Below, one piece after another: positions 9,060-60,989 of a stretch of DNA of 64,000 bases (the stretch's first letter is position 1; the number at the start of each line of letters is the position of its first letter). The position numbers and the translations under genes were made by a program. The notes under the pieces are model-generated. The model was given only the letters and a program-made list of their open reading frames with translations, was not told where the DNA came from and ran no database searches. This DNA comes from Halobacterium noricense (GTDB lineage Archaea; Halobacteriota; Halobacteria; Halobacteriales; Halobacteriaceae): the NCBI RefSeq assembly GCF_021233435.1, contig NZ_CP089468.1, positions 1,054,001-1,118,000 of the forward strand. The letters run 5' to 3'.

Positions 9060-9095
9060 TCTCCCACCGCGCTAGCCTTCGCCAAGAGTGGCAAC

Positions 9096-9135
9096 GCTGT
9101 CGCTGTTGGCGGCGGCTGCCGCCGACAGCGACAGC
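9096..9135 (+). terminator. 18-bp hairpin after the transposase gene
   Basis: Bases 9096-9113 and 9118-9135 form an 18-bp stem with one G-T pair and a GGCT loop, 37 bases after the transposase stop and inside the element. It could stabilise the transposase mRNA 3' end or block read-through from outside. No T-run follows, so a bacterial-type terminator is not implied. Confidence 0.4.
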
Positions 9136-9239
9136 TCTCCGTCGGTTCGTCGAAGATCTTCTCGTCAAGGCCACCAGCACAACCGTTCCGCCGTGGAACT
9201 CAGGCTTCAGAAACAGCTATCCGAGGATGCTTTGTGAGG

Positions 9240-9464
9240 TACTGAGTCTAGGATTCGATAACCCTCCACGATAACGAGTGCCAATAAAAATCCGCCCCCC
9301 ATTAATGAAATAAGTTGGAAGACGATTAATGGGGCAACTAGATTGATTGCAGCGAATATTCCAGTAACCGACAAAACGCTCAGCGATAATAGAATAAAGG
9401 CAATCACTCGAATTTTCGTAGTTCGCCGAAGATGGCCAGAATGGGCGGGTTTGTTCAAAGACAT
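9240..9464 (-). pseudogene. Membrane protein, N-terminal part interrupted by the ISH3 element
   Basis: The leftward frame starts at ATG 9464 and runs into the insertion sequence after VIVEGYRIL. It encodes a basic N-terminus (HLRRTTKIR) and two hydrophobic helices (VIAFILLSLSVLSVTGIF and APLIVFQLISLMGGGFLLALVIV). Translation would end inside the element at 9207, adding foreign residues. The likely continuation is the leftward frame 7839-6960. The upstream neighbours at 9552-10406 are on the same strand and probably formed one operon with it. Confidence 0.5.
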
Positions 9465-9551
9465 ACTAGCAGTTCGAATTGAACGAATCGTGTTGTAAAT
9501 TCACCGCCGTCGTACTTCACCGGAATCTCAGACACTCACACCTTGAACATC

Positions 9552-10199
9552 TCACTCTTGGGATTCCGCATTCTCCTTTGTGTCTACAACAGTTATTTGC
9601 TGAATATCGTCACCAAAGAGCAGCTCTATGTCAGTCCCAGCGTCTTCGAATCCGTCCATACTGGGCGACTTCCACTCTGCTCCTGTTAGAGAAATTTGTT
9701 TTTCTTTCCCATCGTCACTGTACTGCTTTAGACCCCCGATGACAATTGCTCCATCAGACGTGAGGACTTGTACACGAGCAGCCTCATCAAGTGTTCCCTC
9801 CCACGGTTCGTGGAAGTTCCGGGTTCGATCTCCCGGAACTCGTTCCCAAATCCAATTTCGAACCTGTTTGTGAACATTCGATGCGAGTAAAACTGCTCCT
9901 AGAACTCCCATTCCTGCTGACCCGGTGATGAGAGCTAAAACTAGTTCGGGACGGAATTTTGGAGTGAAAAATACGGCCTGAACCTCTGTAACATCCGTGA
10001 CTTCTGTCCCATTCAGTTGGAGGATTCCCAGAAATAGGGATACGACGAACAGGCTCGTTGATAGGCTAACAATAAGAAGACGCCACTTAGAGATTTCAGT
10101 CCGAACGACACCCAGAGAAACCGCTACATGGGTGGTGATAAATCCCGGAACAACAACGATTAGCGCTAAAAGTAAATTCTGGATCGAACCGAGCGCCAT
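9552..10199 (-). CDS. Membrane protein, DUF6338-like, 215 aa
   Basis: Three hydrophobic helices lie at about residues 7-27, 41-62 and 87-107, followed by a soluble strand-rich domain (ARVQVLTSDGAIVIGGLKQY) of the kind seen in DUF6338 proteins, where a small cytosolic barrel follows N-terminal membrane helices. The ATG is 9 bp downstream of the preceding small gene. GC content is lower than in the flanking viral block, consistent with acquired cargo. Function unknown; proteins of this family are often found in accessory regions. Confidence 0.5.
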   Translation of the reverse strand: MALGSIQNLLLALIVVVPGFITTHVAVSLGVVRTEISKWRLLIVSLSTSLFVVSLFLGILQLNGTEVTDVTEVQAVFFTPKFRPELVLALITGSAGMGVLGAVLLASNVHKQVRNWIWERVPGDRTRNFHEPWEGTLDEAARVQVLTSDGAIVIGGLKQYSDDGKEKQISLTGAEWKSPSMDGFEDAGTDIELLFGDDIQQITVVDTKENAESQE

Positions 10200-10208
10200 C
10201 TACTGAAC

Positions 10209-10406
10209 TTACTCCTGGCTATCTTGGGAGTCGCTGGACTCTGCAGATGGCCGAATGAACCCGTATCCGCCATCTTCACCAGCGTTTTCGTCACCAGTTT
10301 TCCCCTTCTGAGCAATTCCGTCAGTTACTGTTTTCGCGTTCTCGCGGACTTCCTTCGAAAGCGCCTCCGTCTCCCCCTCATCCTTCTTATCGTCGCTCAT
10401 AGACAT
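10209..10406 (-). CDS. Small acidic protein, 65 aa
   Basis: A highly charged, probably disordered 65-residue protein (SDDKKDEGETEALSKEVREN) ends in a Ser/Gln/Asp tail. It begins at the ATG at 10406, and a second Met two codons later is also possible. It lies directly upstream of the DUF6338-like gene with 9 bp between them, so the two are probably co-transcribed. No family recognised. Confidence 0.5.
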   Translation of the reverse strand: MSMSDDKKDEGETEALSKEVRENAKTVTDGIAQKGKTGDENAGEDGGYGFIRPSAESSDSQDSQE

Positions 10407-10654
10407 TAGTTGTCGTGCAGACTTTTAAACATCTAGGCTGGTTGGCAACGCCGTCCTTGTAGTGTTGAAGAAGTACCTCGGTCCGCCCTGTCTTGGAACC
10501 CTCGGGAACCACGACGTCCCGAGAGATTCACTTCTACCGAGATATCCAGAAGCCAGCATGGGACCACCACGTGTAGGTTGAAAGTGAAATTACACTGATG
10601 TTGCTCAAATGAGGGGACGGTAGTATTATGACACTCGAATTATTTAATTGAAAT

Positions 10655-11083
10655 ATGCCCCTAACTAAGTCCGAATTAAGAGAAGCAGTTCTTGACAGTA
10701 ATCCAGACGAGTGGGAGTTTATCGATATGCCGGAAACCTGGGTTCTCCTCTCAGAAGAATTAAAAATTGAGGAAGTCGGATCTCCCAGCTCTGAAGGACG
10801 TAGGGATATCACCCAACCAGACTTTGTAAACCGACCTGATGATGAACATGATCAACGAACTCAGATTCGAGTTTCATACAGAGGGGTTCCTATCGACCAA
10901 CGTCCCGCTCTGTCCCTGGATGGTCATAGAATAATGATGGTCCAACCAGATACAGACCACAGTAGTGGAGACAGGTATCTCACTGAGTATGAGGCCCATC
11001 TGAGTCAAATCATGTCTCAAGATGATTTCCTTCGTAGACAGGGTAATACAATCGACGTTGGAATCCAGGGAAGAGGCGTATAG
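10655..11083 (+). CDS. Hypothetical protein, 142 aa
   Basis: A soluble acidic protein of 142 residues without Cys, membrane helix or signal peptide. The N-terminal 35 residues look helical (SELREAVLDSNPDEWEFIDM). The centre has two strands (TQIRVSYRGVPID) and the C-terminus a helix (YEAHLSQIMSQDDFLRRQ). It stands alone between oppositely oriented cargo genes and the recombinase gene. I do not recognise a family. The 248 bp before it (10407-10654) hold no convincing gene, only short inverted fragments. Confidence 0.5.
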   Translation: MPLTKSELREAVLDSNPDEWEFIDMPETWVLLSEELKIEEVGSPSSEGRRDITQPDFVNRPDDEHDQRTQIRVSYRGVPIDQRPALSLDGHRIMMVQPDTDHSSGDRYLTEYEAHLSQIMSQDDFLRRQGNTIDVGIQGRGV

Positions 11084-11160
11084 CGGACGAGAACGGTCGT
11101 TCTCGTACAGGATGTACGTTTCTCCCGTCTTTTATTAGGTGGGTCCCCGTGTACGGGAAC

Positions 11161-11823
11161 ATGGGCGACGACCAGGTAGCTTGCTACTGTCGAGTTAGTA
11201 CTGACGACCAGAGCCTCGACCGCCAACTCACTGCGACCCAGGAGTACGCTGAGCGCGAGTTCGGTGCCGACCTCGCGGACCTTTCGATCTACCGCGACAA
11301 GTCCACCGGGACAAACACCGAGCGCTCTGGCTACCAAGAGATGATGGCCGACGCCGAGGACGGCGACCTGCGCGCGGTGGTCGTGCACAGCATCTCCCGC
11401 ATCTGTCGGTCCATCTCCGACCTAGAGCGGACTGCCTCGCGGCTCGAAGACGCCGGCACGGAGCTACACATCGTCTCGGAAGGGCTGACGTTGCGGCCCG
11501 AGGAAGAAGACCCCTACCAGACGGCACTCTTCCAGCTACTGGGCGTGTTCGCCGAACTGGAAGCGAACATGGCCCAGCAGCGCACGAAGGAAGGCATCGC
11601 GGCGCGACAGGCCAACGAGGACTACCACCACGGCCCTGCACCGCTGGGCTTCGAGAAAGACGACGGGCGACTCGTCGAGGCCGACGACTACCACGACGTC
11701 ATCTCCGTGCTCGACATGGTGCAGAAAGACGAACTCTCGAAGCGCAAGGCTGCCGAACGGTTGGACAGCTCGCGGCCGACGATTAATCGGGCCCTGGAGC
11801 GAGCGGAGCTGTACGGGTTGTAG
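11161..11823 (+). CDS. Serine site-specific recombinase (resolvase/invertase family)
   Basis: The 220-residue protein starts at ATG 11161 (MGDDQVACYCRVSTDDQSLD). The catalytic Ser is in CRVSTDDQ, followed by the conserved resolvase segments (YRDKSTGTNTERSGYQEM, VHSISRICRS, LFQLLGVFAELE). About residues 180-220 form a helix-turn-helix (LSKRKAAERLDSSRPTINRA) for DNA binding. An alternative ATG at 11149 adds four residues. Proteins like this are common on haloarchaeal plasmids and proviruses. A role in element resolution or inversion is inferred; no paired recombination site was identified. Confidence 0.85.
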   Translation: MGDDQVACYCRVSTDDQSLDRQLTATQEYAEREFGADLADLSIYRDKSTGTNTERSGYQEMMADAEDGDLRAVVVHSISRICRSISDLERTASRLEDAGTELHIVSEGLTLRPEEEDPYQTALFQLLGVFAELEANMAQQRTKEGIAARQANEDYHHGPAPLGFEKDDGRLVEADDYHDVISVLDMVQKDELSKRKAAERLDSSRPTINRALERAELYGL

Positions 11824-11874
11824 AATTCAAGGCACCCGCGTCCACTTTGAGAGTACGAGAGCGAGCTCAGAATC

Positions 11875-11985
11875 ATGATGACCTACGGCGACTGGGAGGA
11901 TTGGGATACGTTCCGTGAGCACTACCTCGGACAGTACTCGGTGAAAGCGCAGCAGCGGGCGCGAGAGAAAGTTCCATGGTTGTAA
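11875..11985 (+). CDS. Small protein, 36 aa, after the recombinase gene
   Basis: The frame starting at two consecutive ATGs (11875, 11878) encodes MMTYGDWEDWDTFREHYLG, then QYSVKAQQRAREKVPWL, a Trp-rich amphipathic peptide. Similar short sequences accompany haloarchaeal recombinase and plasmid genes as far as I recall. It is 51 bp downstream of the recombinase stop and probably co-transcribed. The 150 bp after it (11986-12135) show no gene. Confidence 0.4.
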   Translation: MMTYGDWEDWDTFREHYLGQYSVKAQQRAREKVPWL

Positions 11986-12135
11986 TAGATGGGCGGCCCC
12001 TAGGCATATACGGCTCAACATGCAATATCCGGCACAGGCAACCACGACTCGATAGGCTGGAAATACACCACCAGACTTTAGTGGTGTCCTCCCTGCGTTC
12101 CGAATAGAACTGGCAGGCAACTGGAAAACTGGACC

Positions 12136-12435
12136 ATGACCCCCCAACTCCAACCCGGCGTTGAGCGCCGTCTTGAATCACCAACAGAAGGAGCTACGGT
12201 TACGCTCCTCATCGGCGTTCGTGAGGATACAGAAGAAGCAACGGCTGAACAGATCAGCCATATTGGTGGGGACGTGGAAGAGATTCTGCCGTACAATACC
12301 CTCGCTGTCTCGATCGACGAGACAAGCTTGTCCGAGCTGTGTGCTATCGAAACTGTGGAAACAGTCGAGATCGAAGGGACTTGGGAGGCCGCCGATGACC
12401 CAAATTTTCGCTCCCCAGAAAGTTCGACTCCCTAG
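12136..12435 (+). pseudogene. Subtilase propeptide-like fragment (5' part of a broken gene)
   Basis: The 99-residue frame resembles an inhibitor-I9-type propeptide: TVTLLIGVREDTEEAT, a helix, GGDVEEILPYNTLAVSID and a final strand VETVEIEGTW. It stops at 12433 just where the linker to a subtilisin catalytic domain should begin; that domain continues in the next frame. Restoring one base in the T-run at 12405-12408 would join the two into a single pre-protease (DDPNFSLPRKFDSLDEL). I therefore read it as the front part of one disrupted gene. Confidence 0.55.
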
Positions 12436-12515
12436 ACGAACTTCGGGGAGAACTGCTCGACTTCTATTATAATTTCGTCGGGGGAGTCACCCAACCGGAT
12501 GGCGACACTGTTACT

Positions 12516-13529
12516 GTGGGGATTATAGACTCTGTGTATGAGCCCTCTGACTCTTTTTATGATGCTTATAATGTGGGCCGGACTGTTGACAAAACATCCT
12601 CAGATGAGGACCGTGCTGGGGCGCATGGAGAGATTATTGGTGAGGTAATTGGTGGCTTCAGTGAAAGTGTCCAACTAAACTTCTATAAAGTGATGCAGGG
12701 GGGTGACGATTTGAATATCTGGGGGCGTGATCTTCTGAAAGCTATCGGACACGCGCATAAGCAGGACTCTGTAGATGTTATTAGCCTTTCAGCGGGCAGC
12801 GACCATAGTGAAGATGGAAACGTTGGGTGCCATGCCTATCATCAGCCATGTAGGGTAAGGGCCGCATCTGAGGAAGCTATTGATGACGGAATCACCATTA
12901 TCTCCTCTATCGGAAACAAAAAAGACGTAGACTCAGTCACTTGTCCGGCAACTTCAGACCAAGTCATTAGTGTTGGCTCTGTCACGCCTTATTGCGGTGG
13001 ATCGGTTGAGATTGGGGACACAATAGCTCCGGGTGCTGGAAATGTTAGGCCACCGCTTGCATGCTGGGTTGAAAGGGAAGATGACTGGGGCGTGCAAGAA
13101 ACTCTCTGTTCTGGGCTAGGTTGTACTGTCGGAGAGAGCTGCTCTGCCAACCGCGAAATCGAATATTGGGATGGAAATGCCCCACTTGGAGACAAATTCA
13201 AACCCGATGTCCTCGCCCCACACAACATCCCAACGCATCACGATGGCTCTCCTGGTATACTTTCCGGCACAAGTTTTGCTGTGCCTTGGGTTACGGCAAC
13301 CGTTGCTGAGGCTATTGCAGGCCTGCGGGCCGAGGGAAAAACCGTCTTACCAAGAACAATCCAGGCTGGCATACGGGAAAGCACCAAGGACCGAGGAATT
13401 TCTGTGGCCGGTGTCCTCTACGCTGAGGACGCATTAAATAAAATCGGTAATCGGTTCGGCTTAGAGTTTGAGAGAGACCATTCGGATGACGACTTGTTCC
13501 CGACTACGGATTCGCCTCTAGACGATTAA
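12516..13529 (+). pseudogene. Subtilisin-like serine protease (S8), catalytic part
   Basis: The catalytic triad of the S8 family is present: Asp in GIIDSVY (about residue 5 from the GTG at 12516), His in GAHGEIIGE (about residue 37) and Ser in GILSGTSFAVPW (about residue 253), with the oxyanion Asn in ISSIGNKK. The frame is open upstream to about 12406 without an ATG and encodes the expected linker, so GTG 12516 is only a nominal start. No signal peptide is visible; a cytosolic or element-borne protease is likely. Cys residues near 150-210 could form disulfides. Activity depends on whether the upstream frameshift is real. Confidence 0.65.
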
Positions 13530-13563
13530 GGTCTCTAACTCTCTCGGTATTTGACCGGGGGTC

Positions 13564-14166
13564 CTATTGGCCTGGGGAACGCTGATCGGGGTCTTTTCTC
13601 CAGAACTCGTCTTCGTTCTCGAAGCTACATCGAGTACACCACTCTTCCCTCCGCACCAGGAGGTCGTCCGCTTCGTTCGAGAAATGATCCCGCTCGACTT
13701 CTCGTTCTGTACGTCGCAGTGCGAATGCCGTGTCACAGTTCGGGCACTGGGCCTCGGTTCGAACACTGAAGTAGAACATTCCGAGCAGAACGACGGCTAT
13801 CGCCGGTATCACGTAATTCGGGAACGCGATTGATTCACTCGGGAACTGGGAGTAAACGTTCGACCAGTACCAGTACGCGAATACGAGGAGGCCCCCGAGT
13901 GTCGAGCCGCCGAATAGCCGGTCGAAGTACTGTGGAGGAACAACCTCCGAGAGGAGTTGGAAGATGACTGCGAGGCCGTTGAATTGGCTTGTCCCTTGCT
14001 GATTGTGGGGTTTCGGCTTAGTGTGGCGTTTTGCTTCGGATTGGATATTCACTTGCCCGTGGTCCGTGGCCTCGATGTCACCAACACTCGCTGCATCCCT
14101 TCTGAAGTTCGCGCCCGAGAGTTTTGGTCCCCATCTACCATATAACGAGGCAGTAAGTGAAAACAA
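13564..14166 (-). CDS. Membrane protein with C-terminal zinc ribbon, 200 aa
   Basis: Two hydrophobic helices (LGGLLVFAYWYWSNVYS and PNYVIPAIAVVLLGMFYFSV) lie in the second half. A C-terminal zinc ribbon follows, with CPNC and, about 40 residues on, CTRC. The longest start is TTG 14166; a GTG at 14052 would remove a 38-residue polar N-terminus. The architecture suggests a membrane-tethered sensor or binding module on the cytosolic side. No family name recognised. It converges with the subtilase gene. Confidence 0.5.
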   Translation of the reverse strand: MFSLTASLYGRWGPKLSGANFRRDAASVGDIEATDHGQVNIQSEAKRHTKPKPHNQQGTSQFNGLAVIFQLLSEVVPPQYFDRLFGGSTLGGLLVFAYWYWSNVYSQFPSESIAFPNYVIPAIAVVLLGMFYFSVRTEAQCPNCDTAFALRRTEREVERDHFSNEADDLLVRREEWCTRCSFENEDEFWRKDPDQRSPGQ

Positions 14167-14270
14167 ATGAACTCTTTGTCAAGAATCGACCCCTCAGCTG
14201 GGTGCTTGACGAGCACCGACTAATCTGAATCCAATAAGTAACCAGTGTTGGTTGCTAGCGATAGAAACGA

Positions 14271-14277
14271 GTATATA
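14271..14277 (+). promoter_or_regulatory. TATA box of the winged-helix membrane protein gene
   Basis: GTATATA lies 17 bases before the ATG at 14295. This spacing is typical of haloarchaeal leaderless transcripts, in which transcription starts at or next to the start codon. Confidence 0.4.
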
Positions 14278-14294
14278 GGGTTTCTCGGGGCGAT

Positions 14295-14759
14295 ATGGAA
14301 CGACCAGATTGGGTTGGAATCCTCGAGGTCCTGTATCACCAGTCTCCTCCAGAATGGAATTCAGACGAGCCAGACGGTCACCCTTTCGTCGAGAGAACGA
14401 ATTACCGTCCTGAAGAGGTAGAGCAGGTCTTGGAGGAATTAAAGACTCGTGGCTTGATAGACTGGTCGTACGTAACTGAAGCCGATGAAGAAATTGATAT
14501 GGATGATGAGGAGTATTTGAGCACCAGCAGAGACTATGAGCTGACTAAGAAGGGATTCGATGTCGCGCACGATCGGGAACTCTCGAAGCGCCAAAACACC
14601 CTAAATCGGTCGCTCGTATTCTTTACGTTCGTTCTTGTCATTCCGGAGGTGCTATCCCTGGCGAACCTTTCCGACGCACTGGGTACATTCGCTGCGACGG
14701 TTCTGTTCGCAGGGATGCTATATGTGATTGTGCAGGCCGATTTATTTGCTCAAACCTAA
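14295..14759 (+). CDS. Winged-helix protein with C-terminal membrane hairpin, 154 aa
   Basis: Residues 1-95 form a winged helix-turn-helix (WVGILEVLYHQSPPEW, then a recognition helix EEVEQVLEELKTRGLIDW and a wing ending YELTKKGFDVAHD). Residues about 108-150 are two hydrophobic helices. Haloarchaeal genomes encode many such membrane-bound PadR/MarR-like proteins; the DNA target is unknown. The gene stands alone on the plus strand with its own TATA box and faces a leftward membrane-protein gene, perhaps acting as a local regulator. Confidence 0.6.
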   Translation: MERPDWVGILEVLYHQSPPEWNSDEPDGHPFVERTNYRPEEVEQVLEELKTRGLIDWSYVTEADEEIDMDDEEYLSTSRDYELTKKGFDVAHDRELSKRQNTLNRSLVFFTFVLVIPEVLSLANLSDALGTFAATVLFAGMLYVIVQADLFAQT

Positions 14760-14855
14760 CTGTCTCTTTTATTTTCTCCGAATCCGTAATCACACGGATA
14801 CCTAGGCGATTAGATGGCGAAGTCCAAATGAAGGCCGATCAAGATACTCTCCATA

Positions 14856-15722
14856 TCATAAAATTAGACGAAGAAAGATATCTAGGAAGCCGACTACTGC
14901 AGTCAGTGCGAACAAAACCTGAAGCGAGAATATCAGTCTACTCTCGATTGGTTCAAAATTATTGACGGAGTTAGTACCCGGAATATCGTCTGTAGCAATT
15001 CCGAAGACCGAACCCTCACTAGATTGTGGTTTGGTATTGTTCGAGATGTATCGCTTTATGACGCGAATCAGCGTTGCTAGTGGTAAAAACATAATTACGC
15101 TAAGCTCGAACAACCTCTGTGTTTGAGTATTTGCTATATTTATGTACATTTGGTAGAGAAGACCGGCAACAACAAACCAGACGATAATTCGTAGTACAGC
15201 TCCTTTGAAGTTTTTATGAGCGCGTTGGAGGAGTGCCGTATTCTGATTAACTGCCTGTAGAATTACGTTACTGAAACTTTCTGAATCTAGATTTCCAATA
15301 GATGTGCTGCTACTCGTTCTGAGGAAGAGGGTATTGGAGAAGCGTGGGTACAGTTGTGGCCCGAACGCGATGCTGAAGACCTTTCTGAGTATTTTCATCC
15401 CAACCACAAATAAGATTCCGACTCCGAGAATCACGTTAACCATACTGAGTAGGTATATCAGAGATATGGTTAATCTGTGAAACTGGCTCGACTCGATTAT
15501 CGGGCTAATCCAATCTCCAGAGGGGAGGGTTGGCAGAGAGAAAAGTCCAGAGACATCGACTATAGTAGATAAAACCGCTAAAATCGTCGCGAGAGCTCCA
15601 ATTGTTGCGATAGAGAGTGACCGAAGGTGATGATATTTTTGCTGTTGCCATTCTAGAATGAGTGCTAATTCGTTATCATCTGCATAGACTAATTCACGAT
15701 CTTCGATGTCTTCGTCAGTCAT
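14856..15722 (-). CDS. Membrane protein with about five helices, 288 aa
   Basis: I chose ATG 15722 because the longer frame would overlap the upstream winged-helix gene. After a soluble acidic start (TDEDIEDRELVYADDNELAL) come helices at about residues 35-55, 85-115, 185-205, 210-228 and 265-285. A central polar segment contains a Ser/Thr-rich loop. It is 2 bp downstream of the winged-helix gene and therefore probably in its operon. GC content is low for the region. No family recognised. Confidence 0.5.
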   Translation of the reverse strand: MTDEDIEDRELVYADDNELALILEWQQQKYHHLRSLSIATIGALATILAVLSTIVDVSGLFSLPTLPSGDWISPIIESSQFHRLTISLIYLLSMVNVILGVGILFVVGMKILRKVFSIAFGPQLYPRFSNTLFLRTSSSTSIGNLDSESFSNVILQAVNQNTALLQRAHKNFKGAVLRIIVWFVVAGLLYQMYINIANTQTQRLFELSVIMFLPLATLIRVIKRYISNNTKPQSSEGSVFGIATDDIPGTNSVNNFEPIESRLIFSLQVLFALTAVVGFLDIFLRLIL

Positions 15723-15724
15723 AT

Positions 15725-16009
15725 TCACAGCACCCTCCCCGGCCGTGGTCTCGGCTGATGTCGCGCATCGACCTCGCCTTCCAAGTACAGCCGGCCCCAC
15801 GTCGTCAGTTCGTACATTTCAGTGTGAATCGGCTCTATCAAGTCAGCATCCGCGAGTAGCTGGCAGCGTTCGCGAATCCTATCCTCCGATGCATCCATGC
15901 TAAGCTCGCGCTCCAACACTCGCGGCATCGTCCACGGCTCTTCGTCAAGGTGCTCTAAGATTCGTTCGTCGAGCGAGCACATCCACTCGGCAGGCTTGCG
16001 CATCGTCAT
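15725..16009 (-). CDS. Winged-helix regulator, 94 aa (phiH1-repressor-like)
   Basis: A compact winged helix-turn-helix: the opening helix has the WMCSLDERILEHLDEE pattern seen in phiH1-repressor-like haloarchaeal proteins, followed by MPRVLERELSMDASEDRIRE, a recognition helix (CQLLADADLIEPIH) and a wing ending YELTTWGRLYLEGE. It lies 11 bp downstream of a second, similar regulator, and together they resemble the immunity region of a haloarchaeal virus or plasmid. Confidence 0.7.
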   Translation of the reverse strand: MTMRKPAEWMCSLDERILEHLDEEPWTMPRVLERELSMDASEDRIRERCQLLADADLIEPIHTEMYELTTWGRLYLEGEVDARHQPRPRPGRVL

Positions 16010-49380: not shown

Positions 49381-49427
49381 GGGACACCTGTTCGACTGGC
49401 GGCCCCAAAAGTCTGACTCGGGCGCGG

Positions 49428-52400
49428 TCAGTCGTCGGCCGGCGAGGACTGCTCGTCGCCGTCGAACTCGCCTGCTGCGACGCTGCGAGCGCGCTTCGCG
49501 TGGGCGTGTGCCGCCGCGTCGTCGCCGACCTCGACGAGGAGCGCGACGAGTTCGTCCAGCGCTGCCGTCATCGCGTTCGTGTCACCGCACGCCGCGAGCG
49601 CCTCGACCGCGATTTCGAGTTCCTCGATAGCCGCGTCGTGGCGTCCCTCCCGCTGGTGGACGTCCGCGAGTACGGTCCGCGTCACTGCGACCGAGCGCGT
49701 GTTGCCGGCCTCGTCGAGGTGCGCCATCGAGTCCTCGAGGTACGCGGCCGCCTCCTCGAGGTCACCGGCTTCGAGCGCGCAGACCGCGAGGTTGTGCTCG
49801 CTCATCCCGAGCGCGTGCGGGTTCCCGATGTCCTCCCGAATCTCGTAGGCCTCCTCGTGGGCTTCGCGCGCGCCCTCGACGTCCCCCTGATTCTTCTTGA
49901 CGATGCCGACGTTGTTGAGACAGATGGCACGCCGGTAGTCGTCGCCGATGCGGCGGTACAGCGACTCCGCACGCTCGGTGTACGTCAGCGCGGGCTCGTA
50001 GTTGCCGCGGAGGCGTTCGAGGTCGCCGAGGTTCGTCAGCGCGCCCGCGATGCCGGGGTCGCGGCCGAGTTCGGTGTCGATGTCGAGCGCGCGGCGGTAC
50101 TGGGCTTCCGCCTCGTCGTCGTCGCCCGTTCGGGTCAGCGCGTTGCCGAGGTTCGAGCGGACTTTCGCCTCCCAGAGGCGCTCGTCGTGGCGCTGGTAGC
50201 TGTCGAGCGCGCGGCGCGCGTAGTCGGCGGCCGCGTCGAAGTCGCTGCGGCTGTGCGCCGCGTTGCCGAGGTTGTGCAGCGCCCTCGCTTCCGCGAACTC
50301 GTCGTCGAGACTCCGGGCGTAGTCGTGGGCGGCCTCGTACTGTTTCTCGGCCTCGTCGAACGCCCCGCGCTTCTCGGAGACCGAGCCCAACTGGAGCAAG
50401 CATTCGAAGACCAGCTCCCGTTCGTCGCCACGCACGGCGAGCGCGAGCGCCGCCGCCAGCCGCGCCGCCGCGTCGTCGTACCGGGACTGCTGTTTGGCGG
50501 CTCGCCCGAGGCCGCGCTCCGCCGCAGCCTCGTGTTCGACGCTCCCGCGCGCGGACGCTGCCTCGTGGAGGCGTTCGAAGACGTCGATTGCGCGCTCGGG
50601 GTTGCCCGCGTCGAGCGCGAGGTCGCCCGCCCACCGGTACCGTCGTAGCGGCTGAATCTGTTCGGGGACCTCCGCGAGCACGTCCTCACCGACGAGCGGG
50701 GCGAGTCGCGGCCGGTTGCCGAGCCCGTCGAAGATGTCCGCGACGAACTGCTCGCGCCAGCCGCGTCCGTCGTCGTCCAACCGGTCCAGCAGCGGGCGGT
50801 GGCCGTCGGCGCGAGTGCGGAGTGCGTCACGCAGTTCCGGGGACGCCGCGAGGTCGAGTGCGGCGCTCAGTCCTCGGCCGACGGCCTCCTGGGTCGCGTG
50901 CTCGCCGAGCTGGTCGACGACGTGGTCGAGGAACGCGAACGACCACGTCTCGTGGACGGTGTTCGGAACGGCGTCGAGGCCGTCCGCCGCGGCGGACCCG
51001 AACAGCGCGACGCCGTCGAGCACGCCGAGCGCGTCGTCGACGAACTCCTCGTCGCCGGCTGCGTACACCAGCGACGGCCACACGGGGACGACACAGACGT
51101 TCAGGAGGTTCACGAGCACGCCGACGTCGAGCGCGGTCTGTCCGCGCGACCGGAGCCGGTCGAAAGTCTCGCGAGCGGACGCCGACAGCGTCGTCGCGGG
51201 GCCGCTCCCGGAGACGCCGAGCGGGTCGGCCAGCCGAGCGACGTGGTGGATGGCGACGTAGAATGCGCCGCGTTCACTGCCGGCCGCGTCGTGGACCGCC
51301 TCGTACAGCTCCCCCGCGTCGAGCGCGAACTCGGTGCCGACGCGGTCGCTGGCGCGGTCGAGCAGGCGCTCGCACTCCGCGACGGTCAACTCGGGGACGG
51401 CGTACTCGTGGAGGCCGGTCGTCTCGCGCCACGATTCGCGGTCCGCGAACTGCGTCCACTCGCGCTCCCGGGCGTCGAAGAGGAACGTGACGTCGTCGGC
51501 ACCCGCGAACTCGCGCGCGAGCCGGAGCGCCGCGTTCGCGTCTTCTCCCACGACATCCTCGACGACGACGAGCACGTGCCCGTCGCGCGCTTCGAGGTGG
51601 CGTTCGAGCGCGACGACGGCGTCGAACTCGTCGCCGCCGGCGGCCGCGCGGTAGAGCACCGGGTCGTGGTCGTGCCAGCGCGCGGCCACCTGCTTGCAGA
51701 GCGTGCTCTTCCCGGAGCCGGGTTCGCCGACGACCACCGTGTCCCGTCCGTCACGGAGGCGGTCGTGGAGTTCACTCGCCGCATCGACTGTGGTGCCGTC
51801 GTCTCGCGTCCGCCGGCGCGGAATGGCGTGGCCGGCGGTGACGCCGCCGAGGGAGATGCCGGTCCGCCACGAGACCAGCAGGGGCGCGTGCCCGCGGCGT
51901 TCGAGCAGGGCGTCGGTCACCTCGACGAACCCCGCGGATTCGACCTCGCGTGGGAGCCTGTCGTCGGGGTCGCTCCGTTCGGCGTTGGCGGCGTCGGTGG
52001 CCGCGTCCGGGAGTTGGGCGAAGTCCTCGGTGCAGTCGGTCGCGGCCGCGACGTGGTCGGCGACGCGCTCGGCCGCCCACTCGACGGCGTCGCTGGTCGT
52101 GTGCTCGAAGATAGCTGCGATGCCGCCCGAGTCCGCGTACGCGACGACGTAGACGGCGTCAACGTCGCCCTGTACGTGTACGACGCCGAGCGGCGGCAGG
52201 TCGCCGTTGTACACTCTCGTGCCGTCCGCGGTCGCGATGTCGTGGAGGTGTGCGGGGAACCGCTCCCGGAGCGTGGCCGCCAGCGGTGCCGAAAGGACGA
52301 TACGCGAACTGGTGTCGGGCCGCCGCCCCTGCGAGCGGTACGCGTCCAGCATCCGGGAGTCAGCGAGGCGCGGGAGGACGGCGTCGACGGCGGTCGCCTC

Positions 52401-52808
52401 CCGGACCGCGTCCCCGACCAGCGAGAGCGGGCGCTGGCGGTCGTGGTCGGTGAGGTGGACGTCGGCGTTCGCGACGACGGACGCGTCGAGCGTAACTTCC
52501 TCGGGGAGTGCCCCGAGCACGTCGGCGTTCGCGGCGACGTCCCGGAGTTCCGTGCGGTAGGCGTCGTGGCGTTCGAGCGCGAATTCGCCCGCCCGCGTCG
52601 TCCGGTAGCGGCCGTCGGCGGTCTCCACGAGGTCGAAGTCGACGAGTTCGGCGACCGCGCGGTCGACTGTCGAGCGCGACGCGTCGAGTTCGTCGATGAG
52701 GTCGCGTTTGTACTGGGGTTGCTCGGCGAGCGCCGCGAGGAACGCCCGCCGCTTCGCGACGACTTCCCGGAGCATCTCGACGTCGAGATGGTCGTCGCGG
52801 TCGGTCAT
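49428..52808 (-). CDS. Winged-helix / FilR1-like / P-loop NTPase / TPR protein, 1126 aa
   Basis: Domains in order: an N-terminal winged helix (about residues 10-75, KRDLIDELDASRSTVDRAVA), and a FilR1-like middle domain (about 76-265, VYVVAYADSGGIAAIFEHTT, then DAVEWAAERV) as in haloarchaeal regulators. A linker leads to a STAND-like NTPase with Walker A VVVGEPGSGKSTLCKQ (about 360) and Walker B HVLVVVEDVVGED. At least eight TPR repeats follow (about 720-1100), each with the A-x3-Y/L pattern. This is the plan of a MalT/NLR-like ligand-gated regulator: TPRs sense, the NTPase switches, the winged helix binds DNA. It is transcribed divergently from the Hsp70-like gene. Target and ligand unknown. 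Confidence 0.8.
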   Translation of the reverse strand: MTDRDDHLDVEMLREVVAKRRAFLAALAEQPQYKRDLIDELDASRSTVDRAVAELVDFDLVETADGRYRTTRAGEFALERHDAYRTELRDVAANADVLGALPEEVTLDASVVANADVHLTDHDRQRPLSLVGDAVREATAVDAVLPRLADSRMLDAYRSQGRRPDTSSRIVLSAPLAATLRERFPAHLHDIATADGTRVYNGDLPPLGVVHVQGDVDAVYVVAYADSGGIAAIFEHTTSDAVEWAAERVADHVAAATDCTEDFAQLPDAATDAANAERSDPDDRLPREVESAGFVEVTDALLERRGHAPLLVSWRTGISLGGVTAGHAIPRRRTRDDGTTVDAASELHDRLRDGRDTVVVGEPGSGKSTLCKQVAARWHDHDPVLYRAAAGGDEFDAVVALERHLEARDGHVLVVVEDVVGEDANAALRLAREFAGADDVTFLFDAREREWTQFADRESWRETTGLHEYAVPELTVAECERLLDRASDRVGTEFALDAGELYEAVHDAAGSERGAFYVAIHHVARLADPLGVSGSGPATTLSASARETFDRLRSRGQTALDVGVLVNLLNVCVVPVWPSLVYAAGDEEFVDDALGVLDGVALFGSAAADGLDAVPNTVHETWSFAFLDHVVDQLGEHATQEAVGRGLSAALDLAASPELRDALRTRADGHRPLLDRLDDDGRGWREQFVADIFDGLGNRPRLAPLVGEDVLAEVPEQIQPLRRYRWAGDLALDAGNPERAIDVFERLHEAASARGSVEHEAAAERGLGRAAKQQSRYDDAAARLAAALALAVRGDERELVFECLLQLGSVSEKRGAFDEAEKQYEAAHDYARSLDDEFAEARALHNLGNAAHSRSDFDAAADYARRALDSYQRHDERLWEAKVRSNLGNALTRTGDDDEAEAQYRRALDIDTELGRDPGIAGALTNLGDLERLRGNYEPALTYTERAESLYRRIGDDYRRAICLNNVGIVKKNQGDVEGAREAHEEAYEIREDIGNPHALGMSEHNLAVCALEAGDLEEAAAYLEDSMAHLDEAGNTRSVAVTRTVLADVHQREGRHDAAIEELEIAVEALAACGDTNAMTAALDELVALLVEVGDDAAAHAHAKRARSVAAGEFDGDEQSSPADD

Positions 52809-52830
52809 AACACCATCCTCGGTGGATGAT

Positions 52831-52856
52831 TAGTTGAATATTTTTGTGATTAATCG
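52831..52856. promoter_or_regulatory. AT-rich divergent promoter between NTPase and Hsp70-like genes
   Basis: Within the 165-bp divergent gap a sharply AT-rich island contains GATTAGTTGAATATTTTTG and then TGATTAATC, offering TATA-like elements in both directions, with two similar GATTA boxes 19 bp apart. It is the obvious site for control of both genes, perhaps by the winged-helix protein itself. Confidence 0.4.
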
Positions 52857-52973
52857 AACACGACTGCGGGCGTATGCGCCCGGCGACGCCTCCCGGTTCG
52901 ACGTTCGTCACGGCGTGACGAACTGCGTCGGTGCGTGAGCTAACGATGGCTGCGTCGCAACTGTCGGTCGCTT

Positions 52974-54113
52974 ATGGGACTGTTCAGTAGTTCGCCGGAC
53001 GACCGCGTCTGCGGCATCGCAGTCGACGACTACGGGCTCCGGATTTCGACGATGTCCTGCACGGACCGCTCGCTCAGCAGCCCGGCCGACGGCGAGTTCG
53101 TACCGCTCGTCGACACCGTCGGCAGCACGCAGCCGTCGGGGCTCGCGGAGACGATTACCGCGCTGGCCGGGCCCGCGGGGCCGATACTGCAAACCGAGGA
53201 CAACGGCGAGTTCGGGCGGACGGTGACCGTCGGCGACGGCTTCGGGCAGCGGCTCACGCAACTCCACGACGCCATCGACGCGGACGGCTGGGACGGCGAC
53301 ACCGTCGTGTCGATTCCAGCCGACTACGCCGACAGCGCGGAACTGAGCATCCGCCAACACGTCGAGGACAGCGGGTTCGACGTCCGACAGGTCGTCTCAC
53401 ACGACGTCGCCACCAGCGTCATCGGTGCCGTGGACTACGAAGTCAACAACGAGGAGTACGGCAGCCACCCCATCGTGGTGGTCGACGTCGGGCTCTGGGA
53501 AGTCACCGTGACGCTGGCAGCGGTCAACCTCGACGAGGGCCGCGTCCGAGTGCGCGCCCGCGACAGCGTCGAAGCCGGCCTCGTGGACTTGCTCGAAACG
53601 GCGGCGCAGAACGCGCTCGTCGGCATGGGAATCCCCGAGGAGGAAGTCGACCTCTCGACGACGGCGGCGCTGCACCCGCTCGTCCGCGAGGCCTTCGACC
53701 CGGACACCGACTCGGCGTCCGGCACCGTCGAAATCGGCGGCGAACGCGTGCACGCCCGCGTCGGCACCGAACACTTCATCGACCTGCTCGCGGACATTTC
53801 GTCGGTCGCGGAGTCGTTTGCCACCGAGTTCGTCCTCGAAGCCGGCTACTCGACGAGCGAGGTCCACCGCGTGCTCGTCTCCGGGTTCGGCAGCGAGGGG
53901 CGTTCGGGTGCCGACCTGACCATGCAACTGGCGGCCACGTTCACGAGCGCGGATTCGATGGCCGCCGAACTAGGCGGCGGGTACGCGCCCGAACGCGTCT
54001 ACTTCGGCAACGAAATGATGCCCGAGGTCGGTGCCGCGGACGTCGCGCGGGAGGCCCACGACCTCGAACGGGACATCGAGATACTGGAGACTCTCGACGT
54101 GGAGGCGTCGTGA
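52974..54113 (+). CDS. Degenerate Hsp70/actin-fold protein, 379 aa
   Basis: The fold order of an Hsp70 nucleotide-binding domain is visible: an opening RVCGIAVDDYGLRIS (phosphate-1), VVSIPADYADSAELSIRQHV (like the VPAYF segment), QVVSHDVATSVIGAVDYEV (like the NEPTAAALAYG segment), VVVDVGLWEVTVTLAAV (phosphate-2) and HRVLVSGFGSEGRSG (adenosine loop). The glycine-rich phosphate loops are altered, DLGGGT reading DVGLWE, so ATP hydrolysis is doubtful. No substrate-binding domain follows. The stop overlaps the ATG of a DnaJ-zinc protein, implying a working pair. No membrane segment. Confidence 0.65.
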   Translation: MGLFSSSPDDRVCGIAVDDYGLRISTMSCTDRSLSSPADGEFVPLVDTVGSTQPSGLAETITALAGPAGPILQTEDNGEFGRTVTVGDGFGQRLTQLHDAIDADGWDGDTVVSIPADYADSAELSIRQHVEDSGFDVRQVVSHDVATSVIGAVDYEVNNEEYGSHPIVVVDVGLWEVTVTLAAVNLDEGRVRVRARDSVEAGLVDLLETAAQNALVGMGIPEEEVDLSTTAALHPLVREAFDPDTDSASGTVEIGGERVHARVGTEHFIDLLADISSVAESFATEFVLEAGYSTSEVHRVLVSGFGSEGRSGADLTMQLAATFTSADSMAAELGGGYAPERVYFGNEMMPEVGAADVAREAHDLERDIEILETLDVEAS

Positions 54114-55153
54114 TGTCGTCGAACGCCAGCGACGCGCTCGGCGGGAGCACGGCGGGAGCGGCCGAGCAGGTCGGCCGTGATCTCCTCGAACAGTACACCG
54201 AGAGTTGGAGCGTCGCCGACGACCTCCCGGCAAAGGCGTCCATCCGGGACGTCCAGAAGTGGGACGCCATGAAGGAAATCGAGCGCACGCTCACGGTGAC
54301 CGAGTCGCAGCGGCAAAGTTCGGTGCCGCCGTCGGAGGCACCGTCGCGGGGGGACGCGGTGCCGATAGACGAGCGCTACGACCACGCGCCGGACGGCTTC
54401 GAGGAGAAGACCGTCGCCTTCGCGGACTTCGAGGGGGCGTCGCTCGTCCGGTGTACCGGCTGTGGGGGTAGCGGGAAGGAGGGGTGTAGCACCTGCGACC
54501 AGCGCGCCGTCGTGCAATGCGACGACTGCGGGGGCGACGGGACGACCGACTGCGGGGAGTGTTCGGGCAACGGCACGCAGACGTGCCGGGACTGCAACGG
54601 CACGGGGGAGTCCGGCGACGCGACGTGTCGCCGGTGCAGCGGCGCGGGAGAGACGGTCTGTCAGGCGTGCAGCGGGGCGGGCAACCAGCGGTGTGCGCGC
54701 TGCAACGGCGCTGGTGAGGTCACGTGTCCGGACTGCGCGGGAACGGGGGAAGTTCCGTGTAGCCGGTGCAGCGGCGCGGGGGAACTCTACGAGACGACGC
54801 GGGGGACGCTCGAATTCGAGCCGTCGTCCTCGTTCTCGGTCGACGACTTGCGGGGGGCGGACAGCGAGTGGTTCGCGGAGGTCGACGGCGACCGCCTCGA
54901 CAAGACGGTCCGCCAGACGCCGAGCCGAGCGGGCGACGACGGCTCCGCGACCGTCGAGCACGAGGTGGAGCAGCGCGCGGTACCGGTCACGAAAGTCACC
55001 TACGAGTACGGTGGCGACGACTACGCCCTCTACGAGGTCGGGCGCAACCTCCACAGCCACGGCTACCCGAAGTCGACGACGCGGCGTCTCATCCCGGTCG
55101 TCGTCTCGCTCCTCCTCGCCGCGGGCGCGGGCTACTACTACTTCGTCCTCTGA
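54113..55153 (+). CDS. Membrane-anchored protein with ten DnaJ-type CxxC motifs, 346 aa
   Basis: After a soluble helical N-terminus (about 115 residues) come ten CxxC pairs, nine of them followed by the xGxG of DnaJ zinc domains (CDDCGGDG, CGECSGNG, CRDCNGTG, CRRCSGAG, CQACSGAG and others), more than twice the four of DnaJ. A soluble strand-rich domain follows, and a single C-terminal membrane helix (LIPVVVSLLLAAGAGYYYFVL). No J-domain (HPD) is present. One-base overlap with the Hsp70-like gene suggests a complex at the cytosolic face of the membrane. A holdase or disulfide role is inference. Confidence 0.75.
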   Translation: MSSNASDALGGSTAGAAEQVGRDLLEQYTESWSVADDLPAKASIRDVQKWDAMKEIERTLTVTESQRQSSVPPSEAPSRGDAVPIDERYDHAPDGFEEKTVAFADFEGASLVRCTGCGGSGKEGCSTCDQRAVVQCDDCGGDGTTDCGECSGNGTQTCRDCNGTGESGDATCRRCSGAGETVCQACSGAGNQRCARCNGAGEVTCPDCAGTGEVPCSRCSGAGELYETTRGTLEFEPSSSFSVDDLRGADSEWFAEVDGDRLDKTVRQTPSRAGDDGSATVEHEVEQRAVPVTKVTYEYGGDDYALYEVGRNLHSHGYPKSTTRRLIPVVVSLLLAAGAGYYYFVL

Positions 55154-55240
55154 GCGCGCGTTCGACCCCGCCCGTTCGGGGTCGCCGCCGGTGTCGGAAG
55201 CGTAGACGGTATGACCCCCAGTCCCCTCTGTAGGGGTAAG

Positions 55241-58412: not shown

Positions 58413-58694
58413 ATGTCCGAAGCAGCCACGGGAAGGGACGAAGAGGACGAAATCGTCACCGTGAATTTCAAAGCCACGCAGTCGTTCCTCGACGAAATCG
58501 ACGAGGCGTGGCAAGGCCGCGGGTTCAACAGTCGGAGCGAGTTCATTCGATACACGCTCCGCGACGCCGTCGAGAACCCGACGTTCGACCGCGACGAACT
58601 CATCGCACTGCTCGCTGCTGAGTCAGATAGTCGCGAGGGAACGACGATGGACGCCGAGCAAGCGCGCGAGACGTTCGGAACGAGCGATGAGTGA
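58413..58694 (+). CDS. Ribbon-helix-helix antitoxin
   Basis: 93 residues. An N-terminal ribbon-helix-helix (EIVTVNFKATQSFLDEIDEA, then GFNSRSEFIRYTLRDAVEN) is followed by a disordered C-terminal half likely to wrap around the toxin. It overlaps the RelE-type gene by 8 bp, the standard antitoxin-first layout, and probably represses its own promoter through the repeats just upstream. Confidence 0.85.
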   Translation: MSEAATGRDEEDEIVTVNFKATQSFLDEIDEAWQGRGFNSRSEFIRYTLRDAVENPTFDRDELIALLAAESDSREGTTMDAEQARETFGTSDE

Positions 58695-58971
58695 CGAGGA
58701 GTGGACGTGGGAACTCTCCTCGACGGCGCAAAGCGACCTCGACTCGCTCTCACCGACTGAGCAAGACCGAATCCTCGACAAACTCGACGAGATAGTCAAT
58801 TCCCCGTGGCGCGACCCGCCGGATTACGGCGAACCGCTGCAAAACAGCCCGCACAGGAAAATCCGGGTCGGGGGGTTCCGTCTCGCCGCGACGTTCCGCC
58901 AGGACGAACAGCGACTCGTTATTGCCCGAATCAAGCGGCGTGGCGGCGCATACACAGCTGACGACGACTGA
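58687..58971 (+). CDS. RelE/ParE-family toxin
   Basis: 94 residues with the RelE/ParE pattern: WELSSTAQSDLDSLSPTEQD, ILDKLDEIVNSPWRDPPDYG, then HRKIRVGGFRLAATFRQDEQ and LVIARIKRRG. The Arg-rich central strand and C-terminal basic residues are those used for ribosome-dependent mRNA cleavage in RelE; a gyrase-type ParE action cannot be excluded. Complete in length. Confidence 0.85.
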   Translation: MSDEEWTWELSSTAQSDLDSLSPTEQDRILDKLDEIVNSPWRDPPDYGEPLQNSPHRKIRVGGFRLAATFRQDEQRLVIARIKRRGGAYTADDD

Positions 58972-59390: not shown

Positions 59391-60989
59391 CTACAGGCGC
59401 TCCGCGACGTGGTCGGCGGCCTTCAGCGCGAGCGCGGCGATGGTGAGCGTCGGATTCATCGCACCGCCCGTCGGGAAGACGCTGGACGACGGAATCGTGA
59501 GGTTCGCGAGGTCGTGCGTGCGTAGCTGGGCGTCGACGACGCTCGTCTCGGGGTTGTCGCCCATTCGCGTCGTCCCCATGTGGTGGTACGCCGGTCCCGT
59601 TGCGTCGGGGCCGACCGTCCACTGAACGTCCGCGCCGAGTTCGGCCAGAATCCCGCGCTGTATCTCGTTCGCGCGCTCGATGGTTCGGCGCGTCCGGTCG
59701 GAAAGCGACCACACCACGTCCGGCACGGGGTTGCCGTGGTCGTCGGTGCGCTCGGGATGGAGGCGAATCTGGTTCTCCTTCTTCGGGGGTTGCTCGACGA
59801 GCGCGCCCACTGCGACGTGCGTGCCGTAGCCGTCGCGGATGCGGTCGAGCATCGCGTCGCCCCAGTCGTCGCCCGACAGCGCCATCTCCACCGGCGAGGG
59901 ACCCGCGTAGTTGAGGAATTCGAGCTTGATGGCTCCCCGCGAGTCGTCCACCCGGTCGTAGAACTGGTGGCTCTCCGTGGTGTTGAAGCCGACGTGGTTC
60001 TGCCGGGTGGGTTCGTCGAGCGTGCCGCCGACGCCCGCGAACAGGTGGTCCATGAAGTACCGGCCGACCAGCCCAGAGGAGTTCGCGAGCCCGTCCGGAT
60101 ACTGCTCCGATTCGGAGAGCAAGAGCAACCGTGGGTTCCCGACGCCGCCCGCGGCGAGCACGAACTCGCGGGCCTCTTGGCGGTGTTCGGTGCCGTCGGG
60201 CGTCGCGTAAACGGCTGCTGTCACGCGCTCGCCCGCGTCGCCGTGTTCGAGGCGCTGGACCGGCGCGCGGTCCACGACACGGGTACCCTGTTCCTCCGCT
60301 CGCGCCACGTGAATCGTCGCGTCGTACTTCGCGCCCGACGGACAGACCGGCTGGCAGGTGCCGTAGCCCACGCACGCGCTCCGGTCGTTCCGGGACTCCG
60401 AAAGCCGGGCGTTCGGCACCGAGTGTGTCGTCACACCGACTGCCTCGCAGGCCTCCGCGAACAGCGAGTCGGAGTAGCTCGGCGGGAACGCGGGCAGCGG
60501 GTGGGGCTGCTCGCGTGGCGGCGCGAATGGGTTGTCGCTCGCGCCCGCGACGCCCAGTTCTTCCTCGGCGCTGGCGTAGTACGGCCGCAGGTCCTCGTAG
60601 CGAATCGGCCAGTCCGTGCCGACGCCGGTCTCGCTTTCGAGCCTGAAGTCCTGCTCGTGCAGGCGCATCACCATCCCCTGCCAGTGCAGCGTCGACCCGC
60701 CGACGCCCTTCACGCGGGCCGCGTTCAGCGGATAGTGGCGATCGCCTGTCGACGCGTACGCGTCGCGTTCGCCGCCCATCTCCCAGACCGAGTCCGGGCC
60801 GTGCGCGGGCCGAATCGAGCACTCCATGCGCTGCTCGCGCTCGTCGTCGTCGAATCGCGGCCCGGCTTCGAGGACGACCACGTCGTAGCCCTCCGTAGTG
60901 AGTTTGTCCGCGACGATGCCGCCAGCGGGGCCAGCGCCGACGACGCAGACGTCCACGCGGTCGGAAGGCTCCCGGTTCGGCTGCATCAC
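59391..60989 (-). CDS. GMC-family FAD dehydrogenase (gluconate/glucose dehydrogenase-like)
   Basis: 532 residues. FAD-binding start VDVCVVGAGPAGGIVADKL with VVVLEAGPRFDDD; GMC signatures GVGGSTLHWQGM and the active-site His pair region GPAYHHMGTTRMGDN; C-terminal PTGGAMNPTLTIAALAL. A Cys cluster SACVGYGTCQPVCPSG (about 220-236) resembles the Fe-S site of FAD glucose dehydrogenases. It overlaps by 4 bp the Tat-signal subunit gene and lacks its own signal, so it is probably exported with it. Substrate probably a sugar or sugar acid. Confidence 0.85.
   Translation of the reverse strand: MMQPNREPSDRVDVCVVGAGPAGGIVADKLTTEGYDVVVLEAGPRFDDDEREQRMECSIRPAHGPDSVWEMGGERDAYASTGDRHYPLNAARVKGVGGSTLHWQGMVMRLHEQDFRLESETGVGTDWPIRYEDLRPYYASAEEELGVAGASDNPFAPPREQPHPLPAFPPSYSDSLFAEACEAVGVTTHSVPNARLSESRNDRSACVGYGTCQPVCPSGAKYDATIHVARAEEQGTRVVDRAPVQRLEHGDAGERVTAAVYATPDGTEHRQEAREFVLAAGGVGNPRLLLLSESEQYPDGLANSSGLVGRYFMDHLFAGVGGTLDEPTRQNHVGFNTTESHQFYDRVDDSRGAIKLEFLNYAGPSPVEMALSGDDWGDAMLDRIRDGYGTHVAVGALVEQPPKKENQIRLHPERTDDHGNPVPDVVWSLSDRTRRTIERANEIQRGILAELGADVQWTVGPDATGPAYHHMGTTRMGDNPETSVVDAQLRTHDLANLTIPSSSVFPTGGAMNPTLTIAALALKAADHVAERL

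Follow-up and report, generated by a model that had tools for sequence, protein, structure and literature searches.

The window analysed here, a stretch of 64,000 nucleotides (C1:1054001-1118000), belongs to the 3.3 Mb genome of the haloarchaeon Halobacterium noricense and carries two adjoining genes, designated ORF1 and ORF2, whose features are collected in Table 1. Both open reading frames were found where the initial annotation had placed them. The one-base overlap it described holds exactly with the ATG start of ORF2, the shared base being the A of TGATG, while use of an upstream GTG as the start would make the overlap four bases. The TGATG is kept in the window, in Halolamina rubra, in Halolamina pelagica and in genome G332, together referred to here as the window-type members. 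Codon positions 1 and 2 are far more conserved than position 3 in both genes, and dN/dS is ~0.30-0.39 for each of them (a rough estimate, as dS is high). On these grounds both ORF1 and ORF2 look selected.

Table 1. Positions of the features of the ORF1-ORF2 locus, numbered from the first base of the window
Feature	Position	Strand	Remarks
Accessory insertion between doxX and proC (approximate extent)	49411..55178	.	absent from five sister genomes
HTH(HVO_A0261_N)-FilR1_middle-nSTAND5-TPR gene, 1126 aa	49428..52808	-	co-inserted with the pair
Palindrome TTCGTCA-CGGCG-TGACGAA	52904..52922	.	candidate operator of the pair
GTGAGCTAAC, promoter-like block	52935..52944	+	conserved upstream of the pair
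ORF1, pseudo-Hsp70 (NBD-only, Hsp70-like), 379 aa	52974..54113	+	degenerate nucleotide loops, without substrate-binding domain
Phosphate-1 remnant, CGIAVDDYGLRI replacing VGIDLGTTNS	53010..53045	+	alignment with haloarchaeal DnaKs
Phosphate-2 remnant, VVVDVGLWEVTVTL replacing LVYDLGGGTFDVSL	53475..53516	+	Asp D171 kept (= DnaK D194)
Adenosine-motif remnant, SGFGSEG replacing VGGSTRMP	53880..53900	+	DnaK alignment
ORF2, CxxC-array tail-anchored protein, 346 aa from ATG	54113..55153	+	TGATG overlap with ORF1
Cysteine-free N-terminal domain of ORF2	54113..54451	+	homologous to N-domains of DnaK/J-linked CxxC proteins
Ten-CxxC array, nine CxxCxGxG, spacing mostly 11 residues	54452..54781	+	
Cysteine-free C-terminal domain of ORF2	54794..55072	+	conserved in the wider CxxC family
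C-terminal hydrophobic tail anchor, RR before	55088..55150	+	conserved in relatives

In five sister genomes proC directly follows doxX, whereas in the window ~5.8 kb lies between them, with the pair and an HTH-FilR1-nSTAND5-TPR gene inside. A role of this STAND-TPR gene as a third member of the unit was weighed and set aside; it belongs to a widespread stand-alone family and is absent from the Halolamina and G332 pair loci. Its relatives, full or partial, occur in 49 of 391 haloarchaeal genomes, nearly all of them without the pair, and the nearest one (48%) belongs to a Halolamina-genus genome that lacks the pair. The gene is probably independent, and not an obligate part of the pair unit. A short HVO_A0261_N-FilR1 regulator adjoins the pair of G332, and the Halolamina pairs have no such regulator. 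A foreign composition of the island was also discarded, its GC of 0.705 not being distinctive against 0.694 and 0.661 in the flanks, and no shared sequence of at least 8 bases was found at the two island ends. Elsewhere in the window, positions 8001-16000 are a possible foreign stretch (GC 0.50-0.54 versus 0.63 for the window), and two overlapping small ORFs at 58413-58971 (+) have the appearance of a toxin-antitoxin pair of ribbon-helix-helix and RelE type.

A perfect palindrome, TTCGTCA-N5-TGACGAA, is present ~50-70 bases upstream of ORF1 in the window and in H. rubra, and diverged copies occupy the same place in H. pelagica and G332. The palindrome was counted once in the window and not at all in 100 shuffles, and the 1.04 Mb of sequence fetched, part of it redundant, contained no other exact copy.

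Searched alone against PF00012, ORF1 gave an E of 0.053 over residues 109-195, with 12.2 bits, below the curated cut-off of 20.6; the H. rubra orthologue reached 19.4 bits against the same cut-off. Neither Pfam nor PDB searches were informative with ORF1 as the single query. Two profiles were used, one of the window, H. rubra and G332 proteins (A3) and one to which a distant homologue from genome G424 was added (A5). With A3, the best PDB chain was the Hsp70 nucleotide-binding domain (NBD) 3kvg (E 0.0044), colinear over 109-304 with 157-355, and A5 matched the NBDs of BiP/Hsc70 with E about 1e-3. When A5 was run over 391 haloarchaeal genomes, ~150 ORFs were matched at columns 109-214; among 17 loci fetched from this match list, 16 were canonical DnaK (GIDLGTTNS) and one was a degenerate Hsp70. 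Alignment of the ORF1 family by hhalign gave E 4.8e-4 with the short haloarchaeal DnaKs (110-304) and E 3.1e-6 with the G424 NBD. ORF1 is a homologue of the Hsp70 nucleotide domain, an assignment that is solid once relatives are included. Weak matches to the Hsp70-like profile at two other loci were set aside, one being a homoserine-dehydrogenase-like gene (L002) and the others unrelated membrane proteins (L061).

The predicted fold of ORF1 was compared with known structures using Foldseek. An AlphaFold model from a three-row alignment without any DnaK had a pLDDT of 44.5, too poor to be used as a structure; its top 50 matches were nevertheless all Hsp70-family structures (E 3e-8, probability 1.0, TM only 0.28). 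With 17 rows including haloarchaeal DnaKs, the pLDDT rose to 81.0 and the pTM was 0.83. The best match of this second model was the ribosome-associated complex (RAC) structure 5mb9 (E 1.8e-16, TM 0.65), followed by many Hsp70 NBDs and Ssz1 (4gni), at TM-scores of only about 0.6-0.7. The 17-row model is partly circular, as DnaK rows are in its alignment, and the three-row model is not. Among the matches listed, ORF1 resembled Hsp70 and not MreB or actin, both in sequence and in fold. ORF1 is thus predicted to have the Hsp70-type actin-like NBD fold, the confident model being the one that includes DnaK rows, and a fold unrelated to Hsp70, which would have spoken against the initial annotation, was not what emerged.

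We compared the nucleotide-binding loops by aligning the ORF1 family with haloarchaeal DnaKs in MAFFT. In window-type members phosphate-1 reads CGIA(V/I)DDYGLRI, as against GIDLGTTNS in DnaK, connect-1 reads SHDVATS or THDAASS (DnaK NEPTAA), phosphate-2 reads VD(V/L)GL(W/R)(E/A)(V/I)TV (DnaK DLGGGTFD) and the adenosine motif reads SGFGSEG or SGLGSEG (DnaK VGGSTRMP). The phosphate loops are lost in all window-type members. The catalytic site of E. coli DnaK includes D8, K70, E171, D194, T199 and D201, and a clear ORF1 equivalent exists for about one of these six, D194 (= D171). ORF1 therefore does not qualify as an Hsp70 by its phosphate-1, connect-1, phosphate-2 and adenosine motifs and catalytic residues. 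It also has no substrate-binding domain (SBD), the protein ending with the NBD at 379 aa. The alignment bears out the proposal that ORF1 is an Hsp70 nucleotide-domain homologue which has lost the glycine-rich phosphate loop and has no SBD. Judged from these residues, ORF1 is likely to have lost ATP hydrolysis. The G424 homologue retains GVDIGSS, VDMGATFID and ITGGF, and by its sequence appears to be an intermediate in loop degeneration.

E. coli DnaJ has four CxxC motifs. ORF2 has ten, located at residues 114-219 at a spacing of 11 except for a single gap of 14, and nine are of the form CxxCxGxG. It scored 17.3 bits against the PF00684 cut-off of 32.7. This sets it apart from DnaJ with its four CxxCxGxG repeats and a PF00684 match above cut-off. 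Profile matching detected no J-domain with HPD in ORF2. A hydrophobic segment (KD19 1.78 at 327-345) lies at its C-terminus, preceded by RR. Hydropathy alone is weak evidence here, because the phosphate-2 hairpin of ORF1 scores equally high; the position of the tail and its basic flank are conserved. ORF2 had been described as carrying DnaJ zinc repeats in more than double number, no J-domain and a C-terminal membrane anchor, and this description agrees with the ten motifs, the lack of a J-domain match and the predicted hydrophobic tail. All window-type members, and G424 too, have the ten CxxC motifs. To assess homology beyond the cysteines, two profiles, of the N and C domains, were run against 2046 ORFs. 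The N-domain profile matched proteins of loci L037, L038, L041, L047 and L063 (E 6e-12 to 4e-8), and the C-domain profile matched those of L041 (1.7e-14), L063 (1.5e-13) and L047 (1.9e-11) and, more weakly, L037 (1.5e-8), L053 (1.5e-7) and L038 (1.6e-5). Homology within the CxxC family thus rests on the cysteine-free domains. The C-terminal domain may resemble eukaryotic SSUH2.

Genome contig scans revealed a full-length ORF1 orthologue in H. rubra (L003), with 70% identity, and one with two frameshifts in the H. pelagica assembly examined (L004). In the latter (L004 6001-7135) the partner gene is intact, and the frameshifts may be sequencing error or real decay. Whole-genome searches found a further orthologue in G332, a member of another family, with 64% identity. 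The Hsp70-like gene was absent from 12 other genomes of the same genus, so that the pair occurs in one of 13 genus members, and from the remaining examined genomes of three families (26, 146 and 170 genomes). No ORF1 relatives were detected in plasmid and phage collections, nor in viral contigs searched with the window-type profile. A survey for fixed pairing had been proposed in the initial annotation, and its outcome was one-sided. The Hsp70-like gene was always beside its partner in the five genomes that have it (window, H. rubra, H. pelagica, G332 and, distantly, G424), which span three families, whereas the CxxC family is wider and mostly without an Hsp70-like gene.

The relatives of ORF2 point to a chaperone context for the pair. 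In G424 the distant pair has the reverse gene order to that of the window, and the genes after it encode a J-domain-like membrane protein (PF00226 E 0.002, no HPD) and a short DnaK. In L041 and L047 both a J-domain protein (7e-21, HPD) and a DnaK of ~520 aa are encoded close to a six-CxxC member, and in L038 a degenerate, HPD-less J-domain (1.2e-5) is fused to an eight-CxxC membrane protein. The case for this context rests mainly on the independent DnaK/J-domain linkage in the G424, L041/L047 and L038 lineages, and the chaperone origin suggested earlier is upheld by these clusters and this fusion. CxxC proteins beside J-domain genes in L049, L050, L052 and L054 show little relationship to the ORF2 family once the cysteines are left aside (no match, or E about 0.01) and were not counted as firm evidence. 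The host genome has one canonical DnaK and no short DnaK, and no J-domain was found in the pair or elsewhere in the 64-kb window.

Several of these loci have further genes. L041 (5518-10579) and L047 (2108-7330) represent a conserved haloarchaeal cluster of a six-CxxC tail-anchored protein, a small membrane protein, a protein of 222 aa that matches nothing in Pfam, a J-domain protein and a short DnaK of ~520 aa. In L038 (3934-9382), PP2C-like, vWA and protein-kinase-like genes are near the J-domain/eight-CxxC fusion. Clusters L084, L087 and L130 contain vWA, TerY_C and P-loop genes and resemble GAP1-N2-type systems in haloarchaea; they include a short DnaK (L084 and L130), a degenerate Hsp70 (fused to GrpE in L084) and J-like proteins without HPD, which in L084 carry Ig-like domains. 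On a Halobiforma lacisalsi plasmid, a CxxC gene not annotated in the record (L134 4596-5630) lies between SNF2 and DUF1156, possibly in a defence island. The Halobaculum-type CxxC proteins of L042-L046 are ~810 aa long, have membrane helices and end in a winged-helix-like C-terminus; GMC oxidoreductase genes lie next to them, and a GMC oxidoreductase is also present in the window (59391-60989).

In RAC, Ssz1 binds ATP with little or no hydrolysis and is tethered by Zuo1 (PMC8476630). The Ssz1 NBD positions the canonical Ssb, and Ssz1 retains an SBD-beta-like part (PMC8476630). The pair resembles RAC in that an atypical Hsp70, probably with little or no ATP hydrolysis, is paired with an Hsp40-class protein that would tether it to a site, and 5mb9 is the top structural match. 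However, Zuo1 has a J-domain and binds ribosomes, whereas ORF2 has no J-domain and has a membrane anchor, and Ssz1 binds ATP and keeps its SBD-beta-like part, whereas ORF1 has no SBD. Gene pairing in the five genomes does associate a degenerate Hsp70 with an Hsp40-class partner, one of CxxC class and without J-domain, and the pair offers no J-domain to stimulate a canonical Hsp70. The defining features of Hsp70 proper, of DnaJ and of RAC are thus not all present. The short-DnaK clusters (L041, L047 and L063), for which no published description was found in open-access text, share with ORF2 the CxxC architecture, homologous N and C domains and the tail anchor, but still have a J-domain protein, and the loops of their DnaK are intact. 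The DnaJ cysteine-rich domain, BSD2 and other CxxCxGxG proteins (PF00684, PF25436) have similar zinc-type repeats; ORF2 differs in scoring below the Pfam cut-offs and in its ten motifs mostly 11 apart, extra N and C domains and tail anchor. That no system of this form had been described proved right in part. NBD-only Hsp70s (PMC7159879) and pseudo-Hsp70/Hsp40 pairs, as in RAC (PMC8476630), are known, whereas the J-less tail-anchored version was not found described in open-access papers.

We tentatively propose that the pair is a membrane-tethered auxiliary chaperone unit working like eukaryotic RAC (pseudo-Hsp70 Ssz1 and Hsp40 Zuo1). ORF2 would be tail-anchored with its body in the cytoplasm, and clients, either unfolded or nascent (membrane) proteins, would bind to its zinc-type array and C-terminal domain. 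ORF1, without ATP hydrolysis, would form a complex with ORF2 as a fixed docking subunit, and may position the single canonical DnaK of the cell by NBD-NBD contact, as Ssz1 does Ssb. Because ORF2 has no J-domain, it would be unable to trigger DnaK as Zuo1 triggers Ssb, and the rare and patchy occurrence of the gene, unlike that of core chaperones, also counts against a RAC-like role. Rather doubtful is the larger claim that the pair belongs to a class not described before, namely pseudo-Hsp70 machines that are tethered to the membrane, lack a J-domain and use the Hsp70 fold purely as a docking subunit. Such a machine would have arisen from a haloarchaeal DnaK/J/CxxC cluster when ATP-site residues were lost, and would have spread as a small accessory island.

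The main rival, in our judgement an unlikely one, is that the pair serves as an accessory module in conflict or stress. It would be a smaller relative of the GTPase-centred GAP1-N2-type systems, whose Hsp70, NBD-only Hsp70, GrpE and DnaJ-fusions assemble near the membrane on invasion or stress. Kaur et al. (2020, PMC7159879) describe Hsp70s consisting of the NBD only, next to DnaJ/GrpE genes, in these conflict systems, and the Hsp70 domain without peptide-binding domain, the linked chaperone-derived genes and the membrane-proximal setting are shared with the pair. The restriction to a single genus member and the insertion at an empty site with a STAND-TPR gene fit such a module, as do the vWA, Hsp70-GrpE fusion, TerY_C and GTPase-like genes around relatives of the parts (L084, L087, L130), the PP2C, vWA and kinase genes near the L038 relative, and the CxxC protein between SNF2 and DUF1156 genes (L134). 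Yet the GTPase, GAP1, FNIII/DnaJ fusions and GrpE of those systems are not recognised beside the window-type pair: a GTPase, GAP1 or FNIII gene was recognised next to it in none of the four window-type genomes, and no DO-GTPase or GAP1 gene was recognised among the pair neighbours, although such genes may have been missed. Neither ORF1 nor ORF2 was matched in PADLOC, and the STAND gene family is mostly found away from the pair and is missing from its loci in Halolamina and G332.

It is improbable that ORF1 is still a nucleotide switch or an actin-like filament former with ORF2 as its membrane anchor, in the manner of salactin and volactin. Its fold is actin-like (ASKHA), haloarchaeal actin homologues form filaments touching the membrane (PMC10869688), and in the distant G424 homologue a large part of the loops survives; but the phosphate loops are lost in every window-type member. 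With salactin and volactin ORF1 shares the actin/Hsp70 superfamily fold in haloarchaea, and the matches listed for ORF1 are to Hsp70 and not to MreB/actin. We give even less credence to ORF2 as a membrane-surface thiol or zinc sensor with ORF1 as its signalling partner, the chaperone ancestry being historical only. The constancy of the ten CxxC motifs in the window-type members and G424, and an upstream palindrome suggestive of regulated expression, would suit a sensor, whereas the CxxCxGxG repeats are of the structural-zinc type of DnaJ/BSD2-type proteins and no redox enzyme gene is linked. That two unrelated proteins are merely co-transcribed as chance neighbours is very improbable, for although the CxxC family usually occurs without an Hsp70-like gene, the latter was never seen apart from its partner across three families, and in G424 the order of the two is reversed.

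If the RAC-like reading is true, the pair would be an archaeal membrane-bound parallel to RAC. The G424 protein, with much of the loops kept and with J-domain and DnaK genes adjacent, would offer a natural intermediate between an Hsp70 ATPase and a non-catalytic subunit. The pair also draws attention to a haloarchaeal family, apparently not described so far, in which tail-anchored CxxC proteins are linked with short DnaKs and with J-domain proteins, not all of the latter having HPD.
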